Shown here in pieces: positions 8,077-61,435 of a stretch of DNA of 64,000 nt (positions are counted from its first letter, which is position 1; every line of letters begins with the position of its first letter). The stretch comes from Methanofollis sp. W23 (GTDB taxonomy: Archaea > Halobacteriota > Methanomicrobia > Methanomicrobiales > Methanofollaceae), in assembly GCF_017875325.1 (NCBI RefSeq), contig NZ_JAGGMN010000001.1:1880140-1944139 (forward strand). The letters run 5' to 3'. A program made the translations under genes and the position numbers. The notes under the pieces were generated by a model. It saw only the letters and a list, made by a program, of their open reading frames with translations, searched no databases and was not told where the DNA came from.

Positions 8077-8618
8077 GTGGGAGGGGACCACCCCCTCCGC
8101 TCTCCGGGCGGGCGGTCCTGACAGAGGGGCACTGTCCTCCCCTGGACGTAGACGCTGACCGACCTGTGGCGCCTGATCGATGGGAAACGATCGTGGTGAT
8201 CATGGCGTGACCGGACCACACCACGAGCATATCCCAAAACACTCAAGGGTTGAAGATCTCCTCGAACTGAAGTGCTTCCTTCCAGAAATTCTACACGCTC
8301 TCCTCGACCGGGGGGCTGGCCGCCCCCCGGGCCTCCCGCGAACACGATAGGTCGTGGACGGCAACGCACCTGTCATGGTCATCTATTCTGCCTTCCCGAC
8401 TCAATCGTGGCCCCCGGGGATCCGGGCGGCACTCGCCCCCGGCCGAAGAGGGGGGAAGCCGGGTAACACACATCCCCCACACAAAAGGCGAGGGTTTCTA
8501 CAGATCTTACAGGGCCGACAATTCAGAGATATACTGCTCCCGATCAAAGACAAAATGAAGGCGAGAATAGTCCCAGGGGTTCTCGCAATTTTCCGGCTCC
8601 GCTGCCGGGTTTCCAATA
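8077..8618. repeat. Repeat-filled intergenic region
   Basis: At 8225-8312 is a second copy of the WKEALRF block. At 8440-8500 is a module (CCGGCCGAAGAGGGGGGAAG, then ACACA..CCCCCACACAA) that recurs at about 39311-39368 and, in part, 52702-52745. The end marker TTTCTACAG occurs at about 8495. No gene seen. Confidence 0.6.
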
Positions 8619-9112: not shown

Positions 9113-9746
9113 ACAGTTTCCTCTTCAGGCCTCTGTCTGGTTTAATTCATTTTTTTTCTTCTTATAAACCCATATCGTTGCATTGGTCTGGAAAAGGTTT
9201 GAATAAATGGCTCTGTAGAAATCTTCACTTCCTCTCGGTGCAAGGGGAACTCAGTCGCCTTCCCACACCTTCACGCCAGGGGCGCGGCGTCCCCTGACCT
9301 CCAGGACCACGATGGGGCCGGGACGGCACAAAAAATGACCATGAAGAGGAGATTGCCGTCCTCGACCTATCCTCGTGCGGGGGTTCGGGGGGCGGGGCGG
9401 CCCCCCGGCGAAGAGAACCCTCAGTTTTTTTGGTTTGAGTCTGATTCAACCGCCTTCCCCTATGCTCGTGCCGGGGCGCGGCACGCCCCTCGGCGAAGAG
9501 ACCTCCCCAGGCTGGTGCCCCTGAGATTGCAGTCCTGATCTCATACTATTGAAGCGGCGGCCCATCGCTCCCGCACAATCGCACCCACCAACGCCGCACC
9601 CATCAGGTGCGTTCATCCCGGCCACGGGCAACATCCCGACTCACCAGGACCCCCCTCATTTCCATTTCAAAGAAGAGTCAAAGACCCACTCGCCACCCGG
9701 ACAAAAAACCAGAGGAGATGATCCTCCCCGCGCTTCCATCTTCACC
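9113..9746. repeat. Repeat-filled intergenic region
   Basis: Contains the end marker GGCTCTGTAGAAA at 9209-9221. At about 9330-9430 is a copy of the CCGTCCTCGACCTATC / GGGGGTTCGGGGGGCGG module also seen at 45020-45090, 37725-37790, 38660-38700, 56515-56570 and 61090-61150. No gene seen. Confidence 0.6.
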
Positions 9747-31145: not shown

Positions 31146-31485
31146 AGGGGGGGCGGCACTTCGTCATCACGGACCGATCTCCGCCTTCCCGACCCGACCC
31201 TCTCGCCATCCCGGGGGTCCGGGCGGCACTCGCCCCCGGCGAATGGATGGGGGGAAGGCGTGAGGATCAGGCGTGCCGCCCCCAGTTCGGAGAAAATTTT
31301 CTGCCGTCTCGCGCCGGGGGAGACCCCCGGACCCCCCACGATGAGGAGGGGCGGGGACGGCGATGGATTAAGGTCTCCACCAGTTTTGCTGTCTTGAAAA
31401 AGAGCGATCAAGCGACGAGAAATGGTCATCCCATATGCGTGAGGCGCCCTCTCGCCTCATGCAAAATTCTACACAGCAAAAAAAA
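31146..31485. repeat. Repeat DNA and RNR terminator
   Basis: About 31285-31445 shares the CACCAGTT.TGCTGTCTTGAAA / CGACGAGAAA / CATCCCATATGCGTGAGG module with 35515-35600 and, inverted, 6905-6965. The A-run at 31477-31485 is a T8 tract on the minus strand just after the RNR stop and is a likely terminator. No gene. Confidence 0.55.
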
Positions 31486-34764: not shown

Positions 34765-35665
34765 TGTGGTGCACCATAAAATAAGAGTCGGAAGCTCTTC
34801 TCTACATCAGATCGGCGTAGAAGATAATACTATTTTCATCGGCATACTGTCAGGGTCTGCTCTGGCCTGGAACAATTTCTTCGTTAGGTGAAGAGAGAAA
34901 AACAACGAAAGAAACTGGAATATGGAGACCGAATGAGAGAGGAGCGCCCTCATCATGGAGACCACAGGGGAAAGACGAGGAGACGAGGTCAGCCCGAACT
35001 CTCCTGCCCTACCGTCGCAAGAGAGCGATGGATGACGGCTGAGAGATCGTCACCACTTCCTGGCGTGAACGCGGCTCACCTGCCTTCCTCCATCGTCAGG
35101 CGAGGAGGAACAGAGAGGTGGCCGCGGCGACACGATAGGTCAAAACCCCTCGTTATGTTCATCGATTGTGTCTTCCCGTCCCCATCGTCATCCTGGGGGT
35201 CAGGGCGGCACAATCAATGACCATGAAGAGCGCACTGCCATCCACCGCGTATCTTCGGGCGGGGAGTTTGGGGGGCGGCGAGCCCCCGCCAGAGAGAGAC
35301 ATCTGGAGGGTTTACCATGAAAATGATCCAGAAGATCCTCTCTTCAAGTTTGCATGGGAGTTTGAACTCGTCATATCACGTTGAAGCCAATACACAGAGG
35401 ATAGAAAATTCTTCTCATGGATCGGCCGCCCCCATCGACGAGATTTCCCTGCCATCTTGCGCCGGGGGGAAACCCCCCGGACCCCCCACAGACCGAAGAT
35501 AGGCGGGGGCGGCGATGGAACGAAGTCTCCACCAGTTCTCCTGTCTTGAAAAGAGAGAGAGCAAGTGACGAGAAATTTTCATCCCGTATGCTTGAGCCCA
35601 GGGCTCATGCCCGATTCTACAGAGCCGAACTACAGATATTCTCTCAGAAGAAGGGGGAGCACAGG
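34765..35665. repeat. Long intergenic region with repeats
   Basis: 34765-34900 is AT-richer and holds the nrdJ promoter. About 34900-35215 shows no gene. About 35217-35300 carries a CCATGAAGAGCGCACTGCCA / GGGGGGCGGCGAGCCCCCGCC module. About 35300-35610 is the inverted counterpart of about 6905-7190. The end marker TTCTACAGAGCC is at 35617-35628. Confidence 0.65.
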
Positions 35666-37381: not shown

Positions 37382-39412
37382 GGTGATCGGGCTCTCGCGT
37401 CCTCTCGTGATAAAGGCGTTGCGGCCTGGCAGGTATCCAGACGGACCTGAAGAGCCCCTGGAGAATCAGGCATGAACCCCTGGTTCACGCATACGGGATG
37501 AACATGATCGTGGACCTCCAGGGGGTGTGGGCCTGTGCTCCCATTTCGCGCAGGACGCCACAGGGGGAACACCACCCACCTGCCGCGAGAGTACAGGAAA
37601 GATTCTACGATCTGGGGCGGCACACCTGATCATCGCGCCTTCCCACACCTCCACGCCAGCACCCCCGGACTCCCGGGATGACGATTGAACTGGGAAGCAT
37701 ATCCAAACTCCCTGAAGAGAGATTGCTGTCCACGACCTATCGTGGCGCGGGGGGTCGGGGGGCAGCCAGCCCCCCGCCACAGAGAGAGGTCCAGAGGGGT
37801 TCTACAGGGCTAAATTCTCAAAAAAACCCGGAGAGATCATCGTCAGGATCATTTTCATGGCGGTCATCCCAGAACTCTCCCGCCCTTCTCCTCATCGATG
37901 AGAGCGAGAGATGAGAATGAAGAGATCTCTGCGTTTTCATCCGCATCCATGCATTCATCGCCTCTCCCCACGACCACGCCTGGGGCGGCCAAGCCCCCTG
38001 ACCACAGAAAGGAGGATTCGGCGGGGAAGGCACACTTCGACAAACATGAACGCACCATTGCCGTCCTCGACTCAATCGTGTGGCAGGGGTCAGGGGTGCA
38101 CCCCCCGGTGCGATCGAGGCCGGAAGACTGCTCTGAAAGAATGATATGGGTTTCTACAGAGCCCCTGTAGAACATCTCAAGAGAGAGAAGGAAGAGATCG
38201 GGGGCCGCTTCAGCGCGGCCCGCACGATTTGATCGCGAATACGACAGGTAATATTATTCGTCAAGTCTATTCCGAAATAAGATCTTTTCGAACCGCAGCC
38301 TCCAGGCCACCTTGCGATCCACAGGTGTCAGAGGAGACCGCCGACAGAGAGATTATCTTTGCAATATATACTCCTGTCGATATGATCCGGTCCCCTCATT
38401 CCTCGGCCCGGTACCTATGATGGGAGAAAATTGGGAGAAATATTGGCTCTGAGGTCATCCCAAAACTCTCAAGCCCCCGCCCTCTCAGAAGATCGCGATG
38501 GATGTGGCGGAAATATCCTCCCCTCTTCGTTGCGCACCTATGCATTCATGCCTTCCCACCCCACTGCGCCGGGGGCGCTGCCCCCGGACCCCCAGGATTG
38601 CGATTGGGTCGGGAAGGCAAAGCGATGATCGTGAAGGCGGGATGCGATCCCCCGCCACTCTTCATCGGCGGGGGGTTCGGGGGGCGGCCAGCCCCCCGGT
38701 GGAGGATAGGGTCCAGAATTTCTGGAAGGAAGCGCTTCGGTTCGAGGAGATGGACAGCCCAAGAGAGTTTTGGGATATGCTCTCTGTAGAAATCCTCCAG
38801 GTGTCGTGTCATCACTCACATGTCCGACCTGGATGCCGCGGATCACACTCTTCACGAGTGGGCAGGAGGCGGGATCGCCGCGTCCTCGCCGCCCCCCTCC
38901 TATCTCCATCGTGGGGTCCGGGGGGTCTCCCCCTGGCACGAGAGAGTGACAACAATGTCTTCGTTTTTCTGTGGGGGCGGCACAGTTGATTGACGTGCCT
39001 TCCCGCGCCCTCGCGCCGGGGGCGCTGCCCCCGGACCCCCCGGGGATGGCGATAGGGTCGGGAAGGCGCCGTCAATACCCATGAAGGGGGAATGTCGCCC
39101 CTCGGCCATCTTCGTCGTAGGGGGGTCCGGGGGGTCTCCCCCTGGGATGAAGAGAGGGACGGGAAGGCAGGGGCGAGAACATGAAGAGGACAGGGGCGAG
39201 ACCTACGTTCTTTTCACGCGAGGAGAGAGAGATCTCGTTTTATTGCATCGTGGTGACGACTTTTCGTTCTTGACTCGACATTAGCGATGCTCTCGGGGAG
39301 TGTGCCGCCCCCGGCCAAAGAGGGGGGAAGGGGGGTGACACACGTCTCCCCCACACAAGAGACGAGGGGGTGCCATGAAACACACCGCGGTGTGTTCTAC
39401 AAAACCGAAATC
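37382..39412. repeat. Two-kilobase repeat-rich intergenic region
   Basis: The largest gene-free gap. It includes a CTATCGTGGCGCGGGG / GGGGGGCAGCCAGCC module (37735-37790), the palindrome TTCTACAG-AGCCC-CTGTAGAA (38152-38172), and inverted pieces of the 6.6-kb region (38450-38560). It also holds the inverted WKEALRF block (38699-38781), several GCCGGGGGCGCTGCCCCCGG-type palindromes (38570, 39016), and the CCGGCCAAAGAGGGGGGAAG module (39311-39368). Frames up to 160 codons here follow the repeats and are not conserved between copies. Confidence 0.75.
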
Positions 39413-40555
39413 TTACAGGTCTGTCCCGTCCTCAAAGAGAGCGACGGCCTCCTTGAGCACCGTCGGGATCTCGATCCCCTGCGGGCAGAGGGAGAGGCAC
39501 ATCCCGCACTCGGTGCACCACGAGGCCAGACCCCCCTCGCCGAGGAGGGAGCGGTAGAAGAATTGTGCATACGCGGGGTCGTCGTAGAGCCCGGCATTGT
39601 TCACCTGGGCAAAACACTCAGGGATGTTTACGCCGCACGGGCAGGGCATGCAGTAACGGCACCCGGTGCACGGGACCGCGAGCCGCGCCCGGTAGACCTC
39701 GCGCACGTCCTCGACGACCGTGTGCTCCTCTGGCGAGAGCGCTCCCGGCCGGGTGGTCCCCGCAACCCCGAGGTTCTCGTCGAGGTCTTCGGGCGTCCCC
39801 ATTCCTGAGAGGACGGTCGTCACCTCGGGATGGTCGAGGACCCATCGAAGTCCCCATTCGGCAGGGCTCAGGCGCACCGAGGCGTCGGCAAAGATCTCGT
39901 CCACGTCTGCCGGGGGCCGGCGGGCAAGGAGGCCGCCGCGCAGGGGTTCCATCACGACGACGGCAAGCCCCTTCTCCGCGGCGTACCTGATCCCCTCGGT
40001 CCCGGCCTGATAGTGTTCGTCCAGGTAGTTGTACTGGACCTGGCAGAGGTCCCAGGCGTATTCGTCGACGATCCGCTTGAAGGTCGAGAGGTCGTCGTGG
40101 AACGAAAACCCGGCGTACCTGATCCTCCCGTCGGCCTTTGCTTCCTCAAGAAAGGTGTCGACCTCAAGGTCCCAGAGTTTGTTCCACCGCCGGCGGGTGA
40201 GGGCGTGGACCAGGTAGGCGTCGAGGTGGTCGGTGCCGAGGCGGCGGAGTTGGGCGTCGAGGTAGCGGTCCATGTCCTCGCGGCTCTCCACCTTCCATGA
40301 AGGGAGTTTGGTCGCGAGGAAGGCCCGCTCCCGGTAGCCGTCCTGAAGGGCGCGCCCGACGATCCTCTCGCTCTCGCCGTCGTGGTAGGGCCAGGCGGTG
40401 TCGATATAGGTGGCCCCCCCGCCGATCGCCGCCCTGATCAGGGCGACGGCTGCGGGTTCGTCCACCTTGCCGTCAGGGGTCTCTGGCAGGCGCATGCACC
40501 CCATGCCGAGGGCGGGGAGGGGTTCTCCAGATGACGGGATCTCTCGATAGAACAT
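39413..40555 (-). CDS. Aldo/keto reductase with C-terminal 4Fe-4S motifs
   Basis: 380 residues. An AKR barrel occupies about 1-270, with the catalytic-tetrad elements YIDTAWPYHDGESE (D and Y), LATKLPSWK (K) and AYLVHAL (H region). Two cysteine clusters follow, CTGCRYCMPCP and CTECGMCLSLCP, typical of ferredoxin-like extensions of archaeal and clostridial AKRs. Substrate and electron donor cannot be told. Single gene between repeat-filled gaps. Confidence 0.92.
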   Translation of the reverse strand: MFYREIPSSGEPLPALGMGCMRLPETPDGKVDEPAAVALIRAAIGGGATYIDTAWPYHDGESERIVGRALQDGYRERAFLATKLPSWKVESREDMDRYLDAQLRRLGTDHLDAYLVHALTRRRWNKLWDLEVDTFLEEAKADGRIRYAGFSFHDDLSTFKRIVDEYAWDLCQVQYNYLDEHYQAGTEGIRYAAEKGLAVVVMEPLRGGLLARRPPADVDEIFADASVRLSPAEWGLRWVLDHPEVTTVLSGMGTPEDLDENLGVAGTTRPGALSPEEHTVVEDVREVYRARLAVPCTGCRYCMPCPCGVNIPECFAQVNNAGLYDDPAYAQFFYRSLLGEGGLASWCTECGMCLSLCPQGIEIPTVLKEAVALFEDGTDL

Positions 40556-41108
40556 CGTATCCTACTCTGTCGGCCCCAGAGAATTCACTGCCGGTCTTCG
40601 CCTGGCACAATCGGGTCTGCACGAGGCCTCGCCGTGGGGGAGCCGCGAAGACGACAGAGACCTGATCATCCCGCGCCGAAGAAAACGCCATAGATCTCTC
40701 AAGCGCAGTCTTCTGATCACGTACCTTCCCACATCCTCGCGCCAGAGGGTGCCCCCCGCCAGAGAGGACCCATCCGGAGGATCTCTCCACGGCCATTTTT
40801 AGAGAGCCTCTGGACCTCTGTACAGGGGAAGCCGCGTCCCCTTCGCCCTCCACGATGATCTTCCATCCGTATGCCCGAGGCACCCGTTCGATCACTTCAC
40901 GACGCCGTTCTCCAGGGCGCGCACACTCCCCCCGCTCCCGCCCCTCATCCGCCCGCCCCAGAACTCTCCCCCCCTGTCGCCATCGATGGTCCTGCCCATT
41001 CTCGTCAGGAGAACGAGAAATCCGGTCAATCCCATCGTTTCATAAAAGTCTCAAGATATATGTGGGAGGAGGACGATCTCCCCATATCGAAGAAAGGAGA
41101 GAGACGAC
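40556..41108. other. Intergenic region before the unknown-larC operon
   Basis: 40556-41040 shows no gene, only weak repeat pieces (GCGCCAGAGGGTGCCCCCCG near 40740). AGATATATGTG at 41054-41064 is a TATA box, and AAGGAGAGAG at 41095-41104 is a strong ribosome-binding site for the gene at 41109. Confidence 0.5.
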
Positions 41109-42962
41109 ATGACAGACACGCATGAAAAAGACAAAGTCATCTTCGCCGCGACGATGGCCTCGACCTTCGAGCCGGACTCGATGACCAACGACAAACTTGA
41201 GGCCGCCACAAAAGGGCACGGCTCCCTGGTCATCCCGGTCTATGCGGCGGCCAACTCGATCGCCGAAGACCTCTTCTGCTCAGTCGCCGGGCCCGAGATG
41301 AGCCTGATGGGGCGCATGACCGTGGTGGACGCCGCCGCCGGCGAACTGCCCCTCGACATGGTCGTCGAGAAAGCGGTGCGGGAGGCAAAGAACGCCGGGG
41401 CCGAACCTGCAAACGCCGCCCTCATCGTGGCGGCGCTCGCCTACTTCTCTGGCTCGTGCGCCAGGTCGGGCGTCCCGCTCGGCAACCGGAAACTCGGGGC
41501 CATCGCACGGATCCATGCCGGGGCCGCACGGACGAGTGCGATCGCCCTCGTCACCGGCAAGTCCACCCACCGGATCCAGGCGTTCCCGGCCTATATGGCC
41601 ATCTACGAAGCCCTGGCAGAGAAGAAACTGACCAGGGTCGACGGATCCATCCTCCCGCCCTTCATCTCAGGCGGGACCATCTACGGCCACTCGGCCCTTG
41701 GCGAAGATTACAACATCCCCGAACTTGCCTACAACGCCGCAAAGGTCGGGACCGAAGCGATGATGGAGAGCATGGCCGGCGCCGGGATCACGCCCCTCGC
41801 CCTCTGGCCGGCCCTCATCGGGGCGGCGGTGACGATGGAGATCGTCCACCCTGACGCCATCCTGGGCGAAGAGTTCGGGAAGTTCGGGCGCGTCGACTCG
41901 TCGTACCTCGCCGGCAAGGGCGCACGGGACGCCGCCGGGATGCCAGAAAAACTCCATATCAGGGGGACGCACGAGGAGTACGACACCGCCAAGGTGCTCG
42001 GCGACTTCGGGCTGATCCTCAAAGACATCGGCGGGCCCTCGGTCATCGGGTCGATGGCGCTCTCCGAGATCTTCGCCTGTTTCGAGGAGTCGTCGTCCAT
42101 CGGGGCCGGGTTCTCGGGCGGCCCGGTCAACCCGCCTCTCGGCCACCTTGCAGGCGACTGCGTCCCGGCCCTCAGACTCCTGATGCGGCACCAGGGCGAC
42201 GTCTTCGCGGTCTCGGAAGCGGTCCGCGACTACAAGATGGAGGCCTTCATCGATCCCGAACTGGCCCTCTGCAGTCTCAACACCATCGCCAGAAAGGCCG
42301 AGCAGGTGAGCCGCGGCAAGGTCACCAGGGCCTGCATCCTCGCCTCAGAAGGGGTGCGGGACCGCGCCATCTACCGGCGGGCCGCTCACACCTACGACAT
42401 CATCAAGGCCGGGCAGACCGTCGCCGACGCCACGCGGATCCTTGACGAGGAGAGACTCGCCTATGTCGAACGCCGGGGTTCGGCGATCCTCTCGGGCTTC
42501 ACCGGCAGGGAGGTGGCGCTGAAGTTCACCTCGATCAAGGCTCACGGCCGCCGGACCGACAAGTTCACCGCACGCTACTGGGGTTTTGACTCCAATGCCT
42601 CGTACGACGTCTCCATCGACGGGAAGAAGTATCATGTCGAGAACCTCAGCGGGAAGGAGGTGCCCGCCTTCGCCCTTGAGGGGAAGAACCGCGATGATCC
42701 TGACTGGCCGGTCGCCCTCTTCTGCGGGTCCATCCTGACCCAGGAACTCCAGTACATCGGGCACACGATCATCAACATCACCGTCCCCGCGGCGGTCGCC
42801 GGGCTCATCGGGATGGAGGCGGAGGAGGCCGCGAAAGGGGCCGAAGACGGCGCTTTCCTCACCCGTGCCATTCCTGGCGCCGACGAGAAGGCCCTCGACG
42901 TGGCAAAACTTGCACAGCGGGTCTATGCAAAGATCAACGAGCCCTTCCCGCCTGCCGCATGA
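41109..42962 (+). CDS. Conserved-looking protein of unknown function, coupled to larC
   Basis: 617 residues, no signal peptide. Glycine-rich hydrophobic helices occur in the middle (GIGGPSVIGSMALSEIF-like and TPLALWPALIGAAVTMEI), but no clear transmembrane topology. Enzyme-like motifs are HGSLVIPVYAAANS (about 37-50), GKSTHRIQAFPAYM (about 150), ISGGTIYGHSALGEDYN (about 187) and the small domain VSIDGKKYHVENLSGKEVP (about 500). Composition and codon use are those of a well-expressed gene. It has a strong SD and TATA, and its stop overlaps the larC start by 4 nt (ATGA). I do not recognise the family. The coupling suggests a partner or client of the nickel-insertion protein LarC. Confidence 0.85.
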   Translation: MTDTHEKDKVIFAATMASTFEPDSMTNDKLEAATKGHGSLVIPVYAAANSIAEDLFCSVAGPEMSLMGRMTVVDAAAGELPLDMVVEKAVREAKNAGAEPANAALIVAALAYFSGSCARSGVPLGNRKLGAIARIHAGAARTSAIALVTGKSTHRIQAFPAYMAIYEALAEKKLTRVDGSILPPFISGGTIYGHSALGEDYNIPELAYNAAKVGTEAMMESMAGAGITPLALWPALIGAAVTMEIVHPDAILGEEFGKFGRVDSSYLAGKGARDAAGMPEKLHIRGTHEEYDTAKVLGDFGLILKDIGGPSVIGSMALSEIFACFEESSSIGAGFSGGPVNPPLGHLAGDCVPALRLLMRHQGDVFAVSEAVRDYKMEAFIDPELALCSLNTIARKAEQVSRGKVTRACILASEGVRDRAIYRRAAHTYDIIKAGQTVADATRILDEERLAYVERRGSAILSGFTGREVALKFTSIKAHGRRTDKFTARYWGFDSNASYDVSIDGKKYHVENLSGKEVPAFALEGKNRDDPDWPVALFCGSILTQELQYIGHTIINITVPAAVAGLIGMEAEEAAKGAEDGAFLTRAIPGADEKALDVAKLAQRVYAKINEPFPPAA

Positions 42963-44188
42963 GAGCGCTGCTCATCGACCCGAGGGTCGGGGGGATCGCG
43001 GGCGACATGCTCGTCGCCGCCCTCGTCGACCTCACCGGGCTGACTGAACCCCTCACCTCTCTTGCAGAGGCGGTCGCCACCCTGCCCGGATGTGCGGCCT
43101 TCGACGTGGCGGTCACCGAGACCGCGCACGGGATCAGGGCAAAGAAACTCAGGGTCATGCTCCCTGAGAGGCAGGCCGGGTCTGACGGCGACCTGGTGGC
43201 GGCGATGGAGGAGGTGATCGAGAGGGTCGGGCTCTCCCCAGGTGCGGCGGCGACGGCCAGGGGCGTGCTGAAAGACCTGGTCGAGGCCGAGCGGCGGCTC
43301 CACCCTTCGGGGTTTTCCCGCCATGCCGTCGCCTCGGCCGACACGATCTTCGATATCCTGGGCCCGCTCCTCCTGATGGAGGAGGCCGGGCTGTGGGGGT
43401 GTCCGGTCTACGCCACGCCCCCGGCGCTTGGCGGCGGGACAATCCCGACCGGCGAGGGCGAGGTCGGCGGCCCGGCCCCGGCAGCGCTCGAGATCTGTGC
43501 CAGGCACCGCCTCCCGATCTCTGAGTGTGCGCTCGGCATGGAACTCACCACCCCGACCGGCGCCGCCCTCCTTGCCAACCTGGCGGTCGTCGCGGACTGG
43601 TTCCCGGCGATGGTCCCCGCCCGCATCGGGTATGGGGCGGGCACCCGTGAACAGAACGGGCGGCACAACCTCCTGCGGGTCGTCGAAGGGGAGATCGGCG
43701 ATCTGGTGGACGAGCGGATCGTGGTCCTGGAGACCAACCTCGACGACATCACCGGGGAGACGGTCGGCTACACCTTCGAACGCCTCTTTGCGGCCGGGGC
43801 GGTGGACGTCTATATCACCCCGGCGATCGGGAAGAAGCACCGGCCGGTGCAGGTGCTCTCGGTGATCACCGATCATGCCCGCTACCAGGACCTGATCAGG
43901 ATCTTGATGGACGAGACCGGGACGCTCGGGGTGAGGGTGCGCGAGGAACCGCGGCTTGTCGCCGAGAGGTCGCGAGAGGCGGTGGAGGTCGAGGTGGGCG
44001 GGCGGACCTTCCAGGTGCGGGTGAAGACCTCACGCTCATGCGGGCGGGTGGTGGCTATCAAGCCGGAGTTCGAGGACATGAAGGAGATCGCTCTTACCCT
44101 CGGCATGCCCTTCAGGGCGGTGGCCGACGAGGTGCACCGGCATCTTCCTGGTCTCAGAGAGGAGTCGGGGGGGCCTCGCACCTCCTGA
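42959..44188 (+). CDS. larC: LarC-type nickel insertion protein
   Basis: 409 residues, full-length LarC/DUF111. The N-terminal motif DPRVGGIAGDMLVAALVDL corresponds to the family's DPFSGISGDM. FSRHAVASADTIFDILG and PPALGGGTIPTGEGEVGGPA are further family blocks. The C-terminal half contains VVLETNLDDITGETVGYTFE and IGKKHRPVQVL. LarC inserts nickel into the pyridinium-bis-thiocarboxylate mononucleotide to make the nickel-pincer cofactor, first known from lactate racemase LarA. Larger LarB and LarE partners are not in the window. Expressed with the unknown 617-residue protein. Confidence 0.93.
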   Translation: MRALLIDPRVGGIAGDMLVAALVDLTGLTEPLTSLAEAVATLPGCAAFDVAVTETAHGIRAKKLRVMLPERQAGSDGDLVAAMEEVIERVGLSPGAAATARGVLKDLVEAERRLHPSGFSRHAVASADTIFDILGPLLLMEEAGLWGCPVYATPPALGGGTIPTGEGEVGGPAPAALEICARHRLPISECALGMELTTPTGAALLANLAVVADWFPAMVPARIGYGAGTREQNGRHNLLRVVEGEIGDLVDERIVVLETNLDDITGETVGYTFERLFAAGAVDVYITPAIGKKHRPVQVLSVITDHARYQDLIRILMDETGTLGVRVREEPRLVAERSREAVEVEVGGRTFQVRVKTSRSCGRVVAIKPEFEDMKEIALTLGMPFRAVADEVHRHLPGLREESGGPRTS

Positions 44189-44895: not shown

Positions 44896-44903
44896 CTTTT
44901 TTT
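44896..44903 (+). terminator. T-tract after the lipoprotein gene
   Basis: CCCCTTTTTTTTGG directly after TGA. Confidence 0.45.
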
Positions 44904-45117
44904 GGCTTTGTAGAAATCTGTACCTATTCTCCGCCTTCCCCCATCTTCTCGCCGGGGGCGAGTGCCCCCGGACCCCCGGGACCACATAGGGGCAGGAAGG
45001 CGGAATAGATGACCATAAAGAGAGTGCTGCCGTCCTCGACCTATCATGTGGCGGGGGGTTCGGGGGGCGGCCACGCCCCCCGCCAGAGAGATTCATCAAG
45101 AGGATTTCTACAGAACC
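44904..45117. repeat. MITE-like element with inverted ends
   Basis: Bounded by GGCTTTGTAGAAA (44904-44916) and TTTCTACAGAACC (45105-45117), inverted repeats with 11 of 13 matches. Inside are GCCGGGGGCGAGTGCCCCCGG-type palindromes, AGATGACCATAAAGAGAGTG and the GGGTTCGGGGGGCGG / CCGCCAGAGAG block. It shares layout and sequence with 52563-52752. No coding sequence. Confidence 0.65.
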
Positions 45118-45403
45118 GAAATTCTCAACTCTCTCCTCCTCCTCCCCCCACGGATGAAGAGTGGCGGGGGATCGCACCCTCTCGTCGCGATCGTCGCTCT
45201 GCATTCTCGGCCCTATCACCATGTCGAGAGTCCGGGCGGCACTCCCCCCAGCATGGGCGTGGGGGAAGGTGACAAATGCAGGGATGCGCGATGAAAACGC
45301 AGAGATCTCTTCATCATCATCATCTCTCCCCCTCATCGGTTCTGCCTTCCCGCCCCTAAATCATCCGTCAGGAGGTCTGCGAGAGACCCCCCGCATGCCC
45401 AGG
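45118..45403. other. Intergenic remainder before the HIT gene end
   Basis: Further GC-rich repeat fragments (for example GATGAAGAGTGGCGGGGGAT, also near 38655 and 53330). No gene seen. Confidence 0.45.
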
Positions 45404-52532: not shown

Positions 52533-52562
52533 CGTGAGAGGAGAGGAGCGGGATGATCCTCT

Positions 52563-52752
52563 GGCTCTGTAGAAATCCTCTTGATGCATCTCTCTGGCGG
52601 GGGGCGTGGCGCCCCCCCGAACCCCCGGGGCCACGATAGGGGCAGGAAGGCAGAATAGATGACCATAAAGAGAGTGCTGCCGACCTCGACCTATCATGAA
52701 GGGGGGTGACACACGTCTCCCCCACACAAGAGGAGAGGGTTTCTACAGAGCC
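52563..52752. repeat. MITE-like element with perfect 13-bp inverted ends
   Basis: GGCTCTGTAGAAA (52563-52575) and TTTCTACAGAGCC (52740-52752) are perfect inverted repeats. Inside: AATCCTCTTGATGCATC, GGGGCGTGGCGCCCCCC (hairpin), AGATGACCATAAAGAGAGTG (identical to 45006-45025), CCTCGACCTATCATG and GGGTGACACACGTC. Length 190 bp, no coding sequence, no transposase. Confidence 0.72.
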
Positions 52753-56320: not shown

Positions 56321-56663
56321 GAAGGAATATGGGGAGGCATGGTAGATAACCCGTACGGTCCCGCAGTTCTGGCAATGAGAGAGGAGAGAGCACCTTCAGA
56401 GCAGGTACTTCTCCTCTTTCATCCATGAAGACTCGGATCGGATTTGAAGCATACTTCATACCCGATTCAACCAGGACCGGGAAGGCACAATCAGTGGACT
56501 TGAAGAGAGATACCATCCGCCACCTATCGCTCGCGGGGGGATCGGGGGGCGACCAAACCCCGCCAGAGGAAGACATCCTGAGGGTTTCTACAGAGCCAAA
56601 AAAAGAGAATATTGTTCGGATACACTTCATTTCATCCGAACGATGAACATACGATCATGCATC
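56321..56663. repeat. Intergenic with a repeat module
   Basis: About 56475-56597 holds AAGGCACAATCAGTGGAC, CATCCGCCACCTATC, GGGGGGATCGGGGGGCGACC and the end marker TTTCTACAGAGCC. No gene. Confidence 0.55.
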
Positions 56664-60411: not shown

Positions 60412-61435
60412 GTGAATTACGGTTCTGGAGAGACCCTCATCTATTCCTGATGTGAGCGTGACTCAACCTCCTTTCCCATCATCTCACCAGGGGCCCTCCC
60501 CCCGGACCCCCGGGACCACGATGAGGACGGGAAGGCAGAATCGACGACCATGACGAGTGTGGTGCCGCCCTCGCCCTATCGTGTGGTGGGGGGTCCGGGG
60601 GGTGCACCCTCCAAGCGCGATCGAGGGAAAAGAGGCACATGATCAGAAGCCCCCTCCGACCTATCTATGAGGGTTTCTACAGAGCCGGGGTTTCGGCTTT
60701 GTAGAAATCATCTTGATGGTTCTCTTTGCCAGGGGGGCGGACTGCAACCCCCTCTCCGTGGTCATCTCTCCGCCTTCCCGACCTTATCTTTATCCCAGAG
60801 CCCTGGGGCCATGCCCCCGGCGTGAGCATGAGGGAAGGCGATGGATGAAGGTCACAGGGGGGTTGTGGTGATGAAAAGAGGATGTTTTGGCCATGTAGAA
60901 TCTGGCATGAGTCGAGAGCACGCCTCAGGCATATGGGATGAAACTATCATCTCAAATTTGATCAATTCTTGACCCTCATCCTTTTACGAACAAGGAGTGA
61001 TCGAAGTCGAGCATCATGCCGCCCCTCGGCTCTCTTCGTCGTGGGGGGTCCGAGGATGAAGATTGGGCCGGGAAGGCATATTCGAACTCCCTGAATAGGG
61101 ATTGCCGCCCCCGACCTATCGTGGTGCGGGGGGTTCGGGAGGCGGACCAGAGTTCGCACTTTTCATGGAGATATTTTTTCTGGGCGACCGAGAGGAACCC
61201 CGCAGGATCCGCCAGTCGGCGAACCCCTTTCTCTCGCCACTTCAAGAGAAGAGAGGGAAGACAAGATCAGAAGAGCCGACGAGAGAATTCATTCTCAGGA
61301 GTCAGACTCCCATCGAGAGTGAGATCAGACCAGAAAAAAATCTGAATAATCGCTCTAAACCGACAGTATGCCAATCATCACACCCTGACAAAACACCGCC
61401 TCCGCTCACCCCACGAAGACAACACAAAAGAAAGA
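60412..61435. repeat. Repeat-filled region between the exporter and tRNA-His
   Basis: Holds GGGAAGGCAGAATCGACGAC (60529-60548), the hairpin TTTCTACAGAGCC-GGGGTTTC-GGCTTTGTAGAAA (60674-60706), CATATGGGATGAAAC (60930-60945, as at about 6914), and a GGGGGGTTCGGGAGGCGG module (61128-61145). 61160-61430 is plainer. No gene supported. Confidence 0.65.

Follow-up and report, generated by a model that had tools for sequence, protein, structure and literature searches.

The two-gene locus and its signals

The window, meaning here the whole stretch of 64,000 nucleotides analysed from Methanofollis sp. W23, carries two overlapping genes on its forward strand. The first encodes a protein of 617 residues, called U in the following, and the second a U-associated homologue of LarC, called LarC'. 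The main features, with the evidence for each given in brackets, are as follows:

41052-41062, + strand: TATA-box-like CAAGATATATG for the gene pair, some 50 nt upstream of the U start codon (conserved in the alignment of eight upstream regions)
41094-41099, + strand: Shine-Dalgarno sequence AAGGAG, 9 nt before the ATG of U (sequence and aligned relatives)
41109-42962, + strand: ORF of U, 617 aa, candidate nickel-pincer-nucleotide (NPN) enzyme of an unnamed family (no family or fold match, dN/dS, lar-linked homologues)
42959-42962, + strand: ATGA start-stop overlap of U and LarC' (sequence and aligned relatives)
42959-44188, + strand: ORF of LarC', 409 aa (PF01969, NF052512 and TIGR00299, all over cut-off)

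The ATGA overlap, the strong Shine-Dalgarno sequence and the TATA box described in an earlier sequence-only reading of this DNA were all seen, and the TATA-like element is kept upstream of U in all eight aligned Methanofollis relatives. AAGGAG at 41094-41099 is a good ribosome-binding site for U.

Divergently from U, the minus strand encodes at 39413-40555 an aldo/keto reductase that ends in a 4Fe-4S domain. A homologue with about 53% identity lies at most about 3 kb from U in three Methanosarcinaceae loci (L102, L106 and L107); outside this family it is found near U only in a close Methanofollis relative, and it was therefore rejected as a member of the system. The window also contains a dispersed intergenic repeat family with about 72-90% identity on both strands, GC-rich and REP-like in appearance. 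False ORFs overlap these repeats, and a similar-looking stretch was noticed by eye in another region of the host genome (L033). The copies in the window are:

44896-45340: repeat copy
near 8309-8462, 9256-9416, 31195-31260, 35197-35313 and 37718-37985: partial copies
near 38526-39068, 52538-52706, 56504-56601 and 60475-60602: further partial copies

U belongs to a strongly constrained family without a match in the libraries searched

A profile search of U had been proposed by the sequence-only reading, and it returned no confident match to any known family: neither Pfam nor NCBIfam nor the PDB sequences gave a match even at E = 10. PHROGs likewise gave nothing, and none of the viral contigs encodes U. 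Weak Pfam matches of single family members (Fe-ADH_2, DUF6694 and others) were scattered, with E > 0.009, and were judged to be due to chance. The view that U is not LarA is borne out as well, as there is no Pfam match of Lar_N to U or to any of 39 U homologues, no fold match, and an hhalign probability of 0.2 against a profile of nine archaeal LarA.

With dN/dS values of 0.04-0.14 between relatives, U is a real and strongly constrained gene. The values for LarC' are 0.14-0.35, and the pairwise distances of the two proteins correlate (r = 0.81). Over 45 archaeal and bacterial homologues, 83 positions of U are invariant, including His194, His247, His283, His346, Lys128, Lys151, Lys396 and many acidic residues, and there is no invariant Cys in this set. 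The codons of the four histidines, each invariant in the alignment, are located as follows:

41688-41690, + strand: His194 (45 homologues), motif GH..LGED
41847-41849, + strand: His247, motif E..H.D
41955-41957, + strand: His283, motif H.R
42144-42146, + strand: His346, motif P.GH...D

Because invariant histidines and charged residues are dense across archaea and bacteria, the core of U looks catalytic. The same residues speak against U being a carrier, scaffold or chaperone that is loaded by LarC2 and protects NPN (or nickel) or delivers it to client proteins. A delivery complex of this kind would fit the translational coupling and the fixed partner, but host-type genomes are without the known client, LarA, that would have to be served, and we consider such a function unlikely.

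An AlphaFold model of U built from 39 diverse sequences (pLDDT 79.4, pTM 0.84) is mostly helical; an earlier model from 22 close sequences (pLDDT 53.6) was set aside together with its fold search. Searching the PDB and BFVD with the better model gave no fold match at E < 0.3, and none below 0.39 in the PDB. The predicted fold is new in the sense of being absent from the PDB and BFVD only.

LarC' is a divergent second LarC copy

The gene downstream of U had been read as LarC from the sequence alone. This assignment stands by its profile scores (PF01969 311.7, NF052512 128.9 and TIGR00299 111.9 bits, all over cut-off), which cover both the LarC1 and the LarC2 model; what had been missed is that LarC' is a divergent second copy. 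The H.HE motif of LarC1 is missing and reads RHAVAS in the window copy, and 42959-44188 is therefore called a LarC homologue here and not a LarC nickel insertase. Two positions set it apart from canonical LarC:

43319-43336, + strand: degenerate LarC1 His motif RHAVAS, canonical HFHEVG (27 canonical LarC aligned with 17 U-linked ones)
43829-43843, + strand: LarC2 motif GKKHR, canonical MKKGR (alignment)

All 27 canonical archaeal LarC show HFHE or HLHE in LarC1. The LarC' proteins of Archaeoglobaceae and Thermoproteota keep this motif, and most of those in Methanomicrobiales are without it. The same 27 canonical proteins have M before KK, whereas all U-linked copies examined, among them the full-length LarC of the Rhizobium array described below, have G, T or S at this position. 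The LarC2 motifs ETNLDD, KK.R and TGTLGVR are kept in LarC'. LarC2 is the CTP-binding domain of LarC; since its motifs stay while the LarC1 motif is mostly lost, the activity retained by the partner appears to be that of this domain.

Phylogenetically, LarC' forms a clade of its own with a support of 100/100, and two U-linked full-length LarC of Thermoproteota fall inside it (100/98). A single origin of LarC' and the stand-alone LarC2 proteins gave a p-AU of 0.44. At least two LarC genes are present in 38 of the 41 Methanomicrobiales genomes with U versus 10 of the 109 without it (Fisher p ~1e-22 over 150 genomes, relatedness uncorrected). Six of these ten exceptions were examined, and at least three hold a decayed, partial LarC' (G004, G052 and G131). 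Joint decay of U and LarC' was seen in L122, L123 and L124. At 4980-5480 of L124, and in L065 (Methanoculleus chikugoensis), a deletion has left ~150 codons from the start of U fused to the final part of LarC', and this fusion is a remnant showing that the pair is lost as a unit. A different irregularity was observed in a genome assigned to A. fulgidus (L116, 6888-8089), where LarC' lies in two overlapping frames of 102 and 302 aa but in one frame in two relatives; this may reflect an error in the sequence, decay into a pseudogene, or programmed frameshifting.

Distribution and gene neighbourhoods of U

U was found in 41 of 150 Methanomicrobiales genomes, in 46 of the 393 Halobacteriota genomes sampled (~12%), in 4 of 398 genomes of the Thermoproteota sample, which was taken from the phylum of a 'Thermoprotei' MAG, and on five Rhizobium/Ciceribacter plasmids, where the protein has 42% identity over ~90% of its length. 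The six-frame searches covered plasmids, one Halobacteriota sample and one Thermoproteota sample, whereas 84,980 genomes were scanned with no more than two short peptide patterns. Among the U-bearing genomes are two that we take to be Methanosarcina acetivorans C2A and Archaeoglobus fulgidus DSM 4304, and the families f8 and f9 are presumably Methanosarcinaceae and Archaeoglobaceae. In the U tree, members partnered with LarC' and members partnered with a stand-alone LarC2 are split by one branch (SH-aLRT 100). One genome labelled Desulfuromonadaceae (L051) was rejected as a bacterial occurrence, its Methanoculleus-like U and LarC marking it as probably mis-binned.

In 28 of 30 Methanomicrobiales loci, a LarC homologue lies directly downstream of U, its start being -4 to +18 nt away from the stop of U, so that the linkage is not due to chance; the two exceptions (G072 and G100) are genomes without a second LarC. 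The order U-LarC' is shared by Methanomicrobiales, Archaeoglobaceae and a genome of family f22. Methanosarcinaceae and family f14 have, next after U, the gene of a stand-alone LarC2 protein of ~165-196 aa. After this pair, genes of the LarB type and canonical LarC follow in L099, L100, L101, L106, L107, L109 and L110 (the Methanosarcinaceae arrangement), LarB being confirmed in L099, L106 and L109. For Thermoproteota, we found the order LarB-LarC'-U followed by a convergent LarC2 in L174, and the swapped order LarC'-U in L176. Stand-alone LarC2 partners, scoring over the NF052512 cut-off and having no LarC1, were recorded in L099, L104, L105, L112, L174 and L190.

The richest neighbourhood is that of Rhizobium sp. 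CCGE532, an array of U-LarC2-LarC-LarE-LarB and a NicT-type nickel permease, with scores of 232 bits for LarE, 246 for LarB and 415 for NiCoT. Its LarC (L190, 14319-15587) is full-length and contains a long insertion rich in His and Asp, which may serve to bind or store nickel. The array of R. tropici CIAT 899 is of the same type except that larE is split into two ORFs; on plasmid b of this strain (L187, 15619-16425) each of these matches one half of the LarE model, and the gene is intact in CCGE532. A LarA search of the plasmids matched other Rhizobium plasmids and none of the five that bear U. The Rhizobium array is a complete cofactor operon with U in place of LarA.

These linkages bear on a further explanation, namely that U is an enzyme of nickel or another metal without NPN, for which a LarC2-type partner was recruited to load some other metal centre, LarC being in this view a generic metal-insertion protein. 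With the LarC1 motif and the M before KK both gone, the chemistry of LarC' may no longer be that of canonical LarC, and the name of the Pfam family is simply nickel insertion protein. LarB and LarE, however, make pyridinium dithiocarboxylate and not a metal site, and both are linked to U in Rhizobium, with LarB also linked in Methanosarcinaceae and one Thermoproteote; a metal enzyme without the pincer cofactor is therefore improbable in our view.

The neighbourhood survey that the sequence-only reading had proposed thus places U homologues beside larC-type genes in rearranged contexts, and neither of the two outcomes by which that reading would have been refuted, a match to a known unrelated family or homologues mostly away from larC, was observed. 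The main evidence is this linkage, which outlasts four rearrangements and spans two phyla of archaea as well as one family of bacteria. In the loci compared, no third gene accompanies U with any consistency, and the neighbours therefore give no substrate for it. The same survey touches on whether U could instead act within cofactor biosynthesis or tailoring, as an additional step that converts NPN together with LarC2 to a modified cofactor for an unlinked enzyme. U nearly always stands beside a LarC2 protein, also in operons that already encode a complete LarC. Some genomes have both U and LarA, and there LarA homologues or other enzymes could be the recipients of a modified cofactor. The Rhizobium array, on the other hand, is complete in itself and has no further candidate for a user among its genes, no additional gene accompanies U consistently, and about 600 aa with a large invariant core would be bulky for a tailoring enzyme, though this last argument is weak. 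Taken together, we think a tailoring step rather unlikely.

The NPN pathway and the absence of LarA

The pathway starts from nicotinic acid adenine dinucleotide, which LarB carboxylates and hydrolyses; sulfur comes in through LarE, and LarC inserts nickel with CTP (PMC11770544, PMC11796402). Besides LarC', the host genome encodes LarB (241.5 bits), LarE (206 bits) and a canonical LarC (C1:2280452, 382 bits), and since all three score over their cut-offs, the host is able to make NPN. No LarA over cut-off was detected in this genome. These genes elsewhere and the absence of LarA had not been seen by the sequence-only reading. One host protein (L033 1099-2208, C1:1624160) was considered as LarA and rejected, its 20-bit Lar_N match lying below cut-off in a ferredoxin-type DUF362-like protein. 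DUF362 and LarA are placed in one Pfam clan (PMC11770544), and DUF362-like ferredoxin-type proteins may be another candidate for an NPN user in methanogens without LarA.

No match of true LarA strength was present among the Methanomicrobiales genomes listed; in U-bearing Methanosarcinaceae and in A. fulgidus, LarA is found at true strength. LarB scores over cut-off in 348 of 393 Halobacteriota genomes, and owing to this near-universal presence the co-occurrence of U and LarB was dropped as evidence. Nearly all of the 109 Methanomicrobiales genomes without U still have LarC. With LarC kept by this U-less majority, LarB near-universal and no LarA, U is not the sole NPN client in Methanomicrobiales, and another NPN user must exist there besides it.

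A proposed role for U

The sequence-only reading had guessed at an NPN-using enzyme or a delivery protein, and this is the best reading of the gene context. From the genes, their linkage, clades and conservation and the absence of LarA, we infer cofactor binding and catalysis by U as well as a loader function of LarC'. We propose that U is an apoenzyme using NPN or a close variant, a class unrelated to LarA and served by a dedicated LarC2-type loader, and give this proposal a probability of roughly 60%. It is suggested by the link of U to a complete NPN biosynthesis set in Rhizobium sp. CCGE532, with LarB and LarC linked in Methanosarcinaceae and Thermoproteota. A biosynthetic or a carrier role would give the same neighbourhood as an enzyme role.

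As we picture it, LarB, LarE and LarC encoded elsewhere in the host would make the cofactor from nicotinic acid adenine dinucleotide. LarC', which keeps LarC2 and has a decayed LarC1 site, would use the CTP and metal chemistry of LarC2 and finish the cofactor, re-metallate it or hand it to nascent U, so that loading by LarC' or LarC2 would be co-translational. Such a loader would explain the start-stop overlap and also the bare LarC2 partner in Methanosarcinaceae and Rhizobium. U itself would then carry out an NPN-type hydride transfer, either an isomerisation or a hidden redox step, with the pincer cofactor as hydride acceptor and with His194, His247, His283 and His346 presumably taking part in the reaction.

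A bolder version, in which U is a second, structurally unrelated class of NPN enzyme with a fold absent from the PDB and the LarC2 partner makes a modified cofactor, seems quite unlikely to us. This cofactor might be, for example, a nickel-pincer cytosine dinucleotide, by analogy with molybdopterin cytosine dinucleotide, in which the CMP of the cytidinylylated LarC intermediate is left attached; such an intermediate is known from the LarC of Moorella (cited in PMC11796402, PMC12611868). The version would suit a partner in which the CTP-binding LarC2 is retained, LarC1 is lost and the M before KK is replaced by G, T or S in all U-linked copies, also in operons that encode a complete LarC.

Comparison with known systems

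To our knowledge, LarA homologues are the only known NPN enzymes. In the literature searched, with most subscription papers outside its scope, no U-type family and no named NPN protein other than LarA was found. In one study, about 15% of the genomes surveyed were found to encode larBCE but not larA, and the existence of an NPN protein with a distinct sequence and a distinct fold was considered likely (PMC11796402). U is a strong candidate for this long-sought second kind of NPN enzyme, the non-LarA protein expected by that study. It is also concrete and cloneable, its family has no Pfam entry and is encoded next to cofactor genes in both archaeal and bacterial genomes, and it is present in tractable organisms, namely Rhizobium tropici and the genome taken to be Methanosarcina acetivorans. 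If U uses NPN, it would represent a new class of nickel enzyme, and its pairing with LarC2 would bring to light a step of cofactor loading that LarA is not known to have.

Like U, members of the LarA superfamily (Lar_N PF09861; NPN-dependent 2-hydroxyacid racemases and epimerases) are genetically linked to larB, larC and larE, and the use of NPN, presumed for U, would be shared as well. In contrast, LarA has ~400-470 aa, whereas U has 590-617 aa, is mostly helical in the model and shows no sequence, profile or fold similarity to it. LarC' is a full-length homologue of LarC (PF01969; CTP-dependent nickel-inserting cyclometallase, structures 12bi-12bl and 6bwo) with the LarC2 motifs, but unlike LarC it is a second copy in its own clade, with a degenerate HFHE motif of LarC1 and G for the M of MKKGR. 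Stand-alone LarC2 (NF052512; Methanopyrus MK0293, PDB 3c19) is of the same kind as the U partner in Methanosarcinaceae, one Thermoproteote and Rhizobium, while the LarC2 domain of the window is still fused to a decayed LarC1 domain. Finally, the host resembles the cyanobacteria and Haloferax that have larB, larC and larE but no larA (PMC11796402, PMC8305020); in the host, there is a specific, linked candidate for the missing user, which is U.
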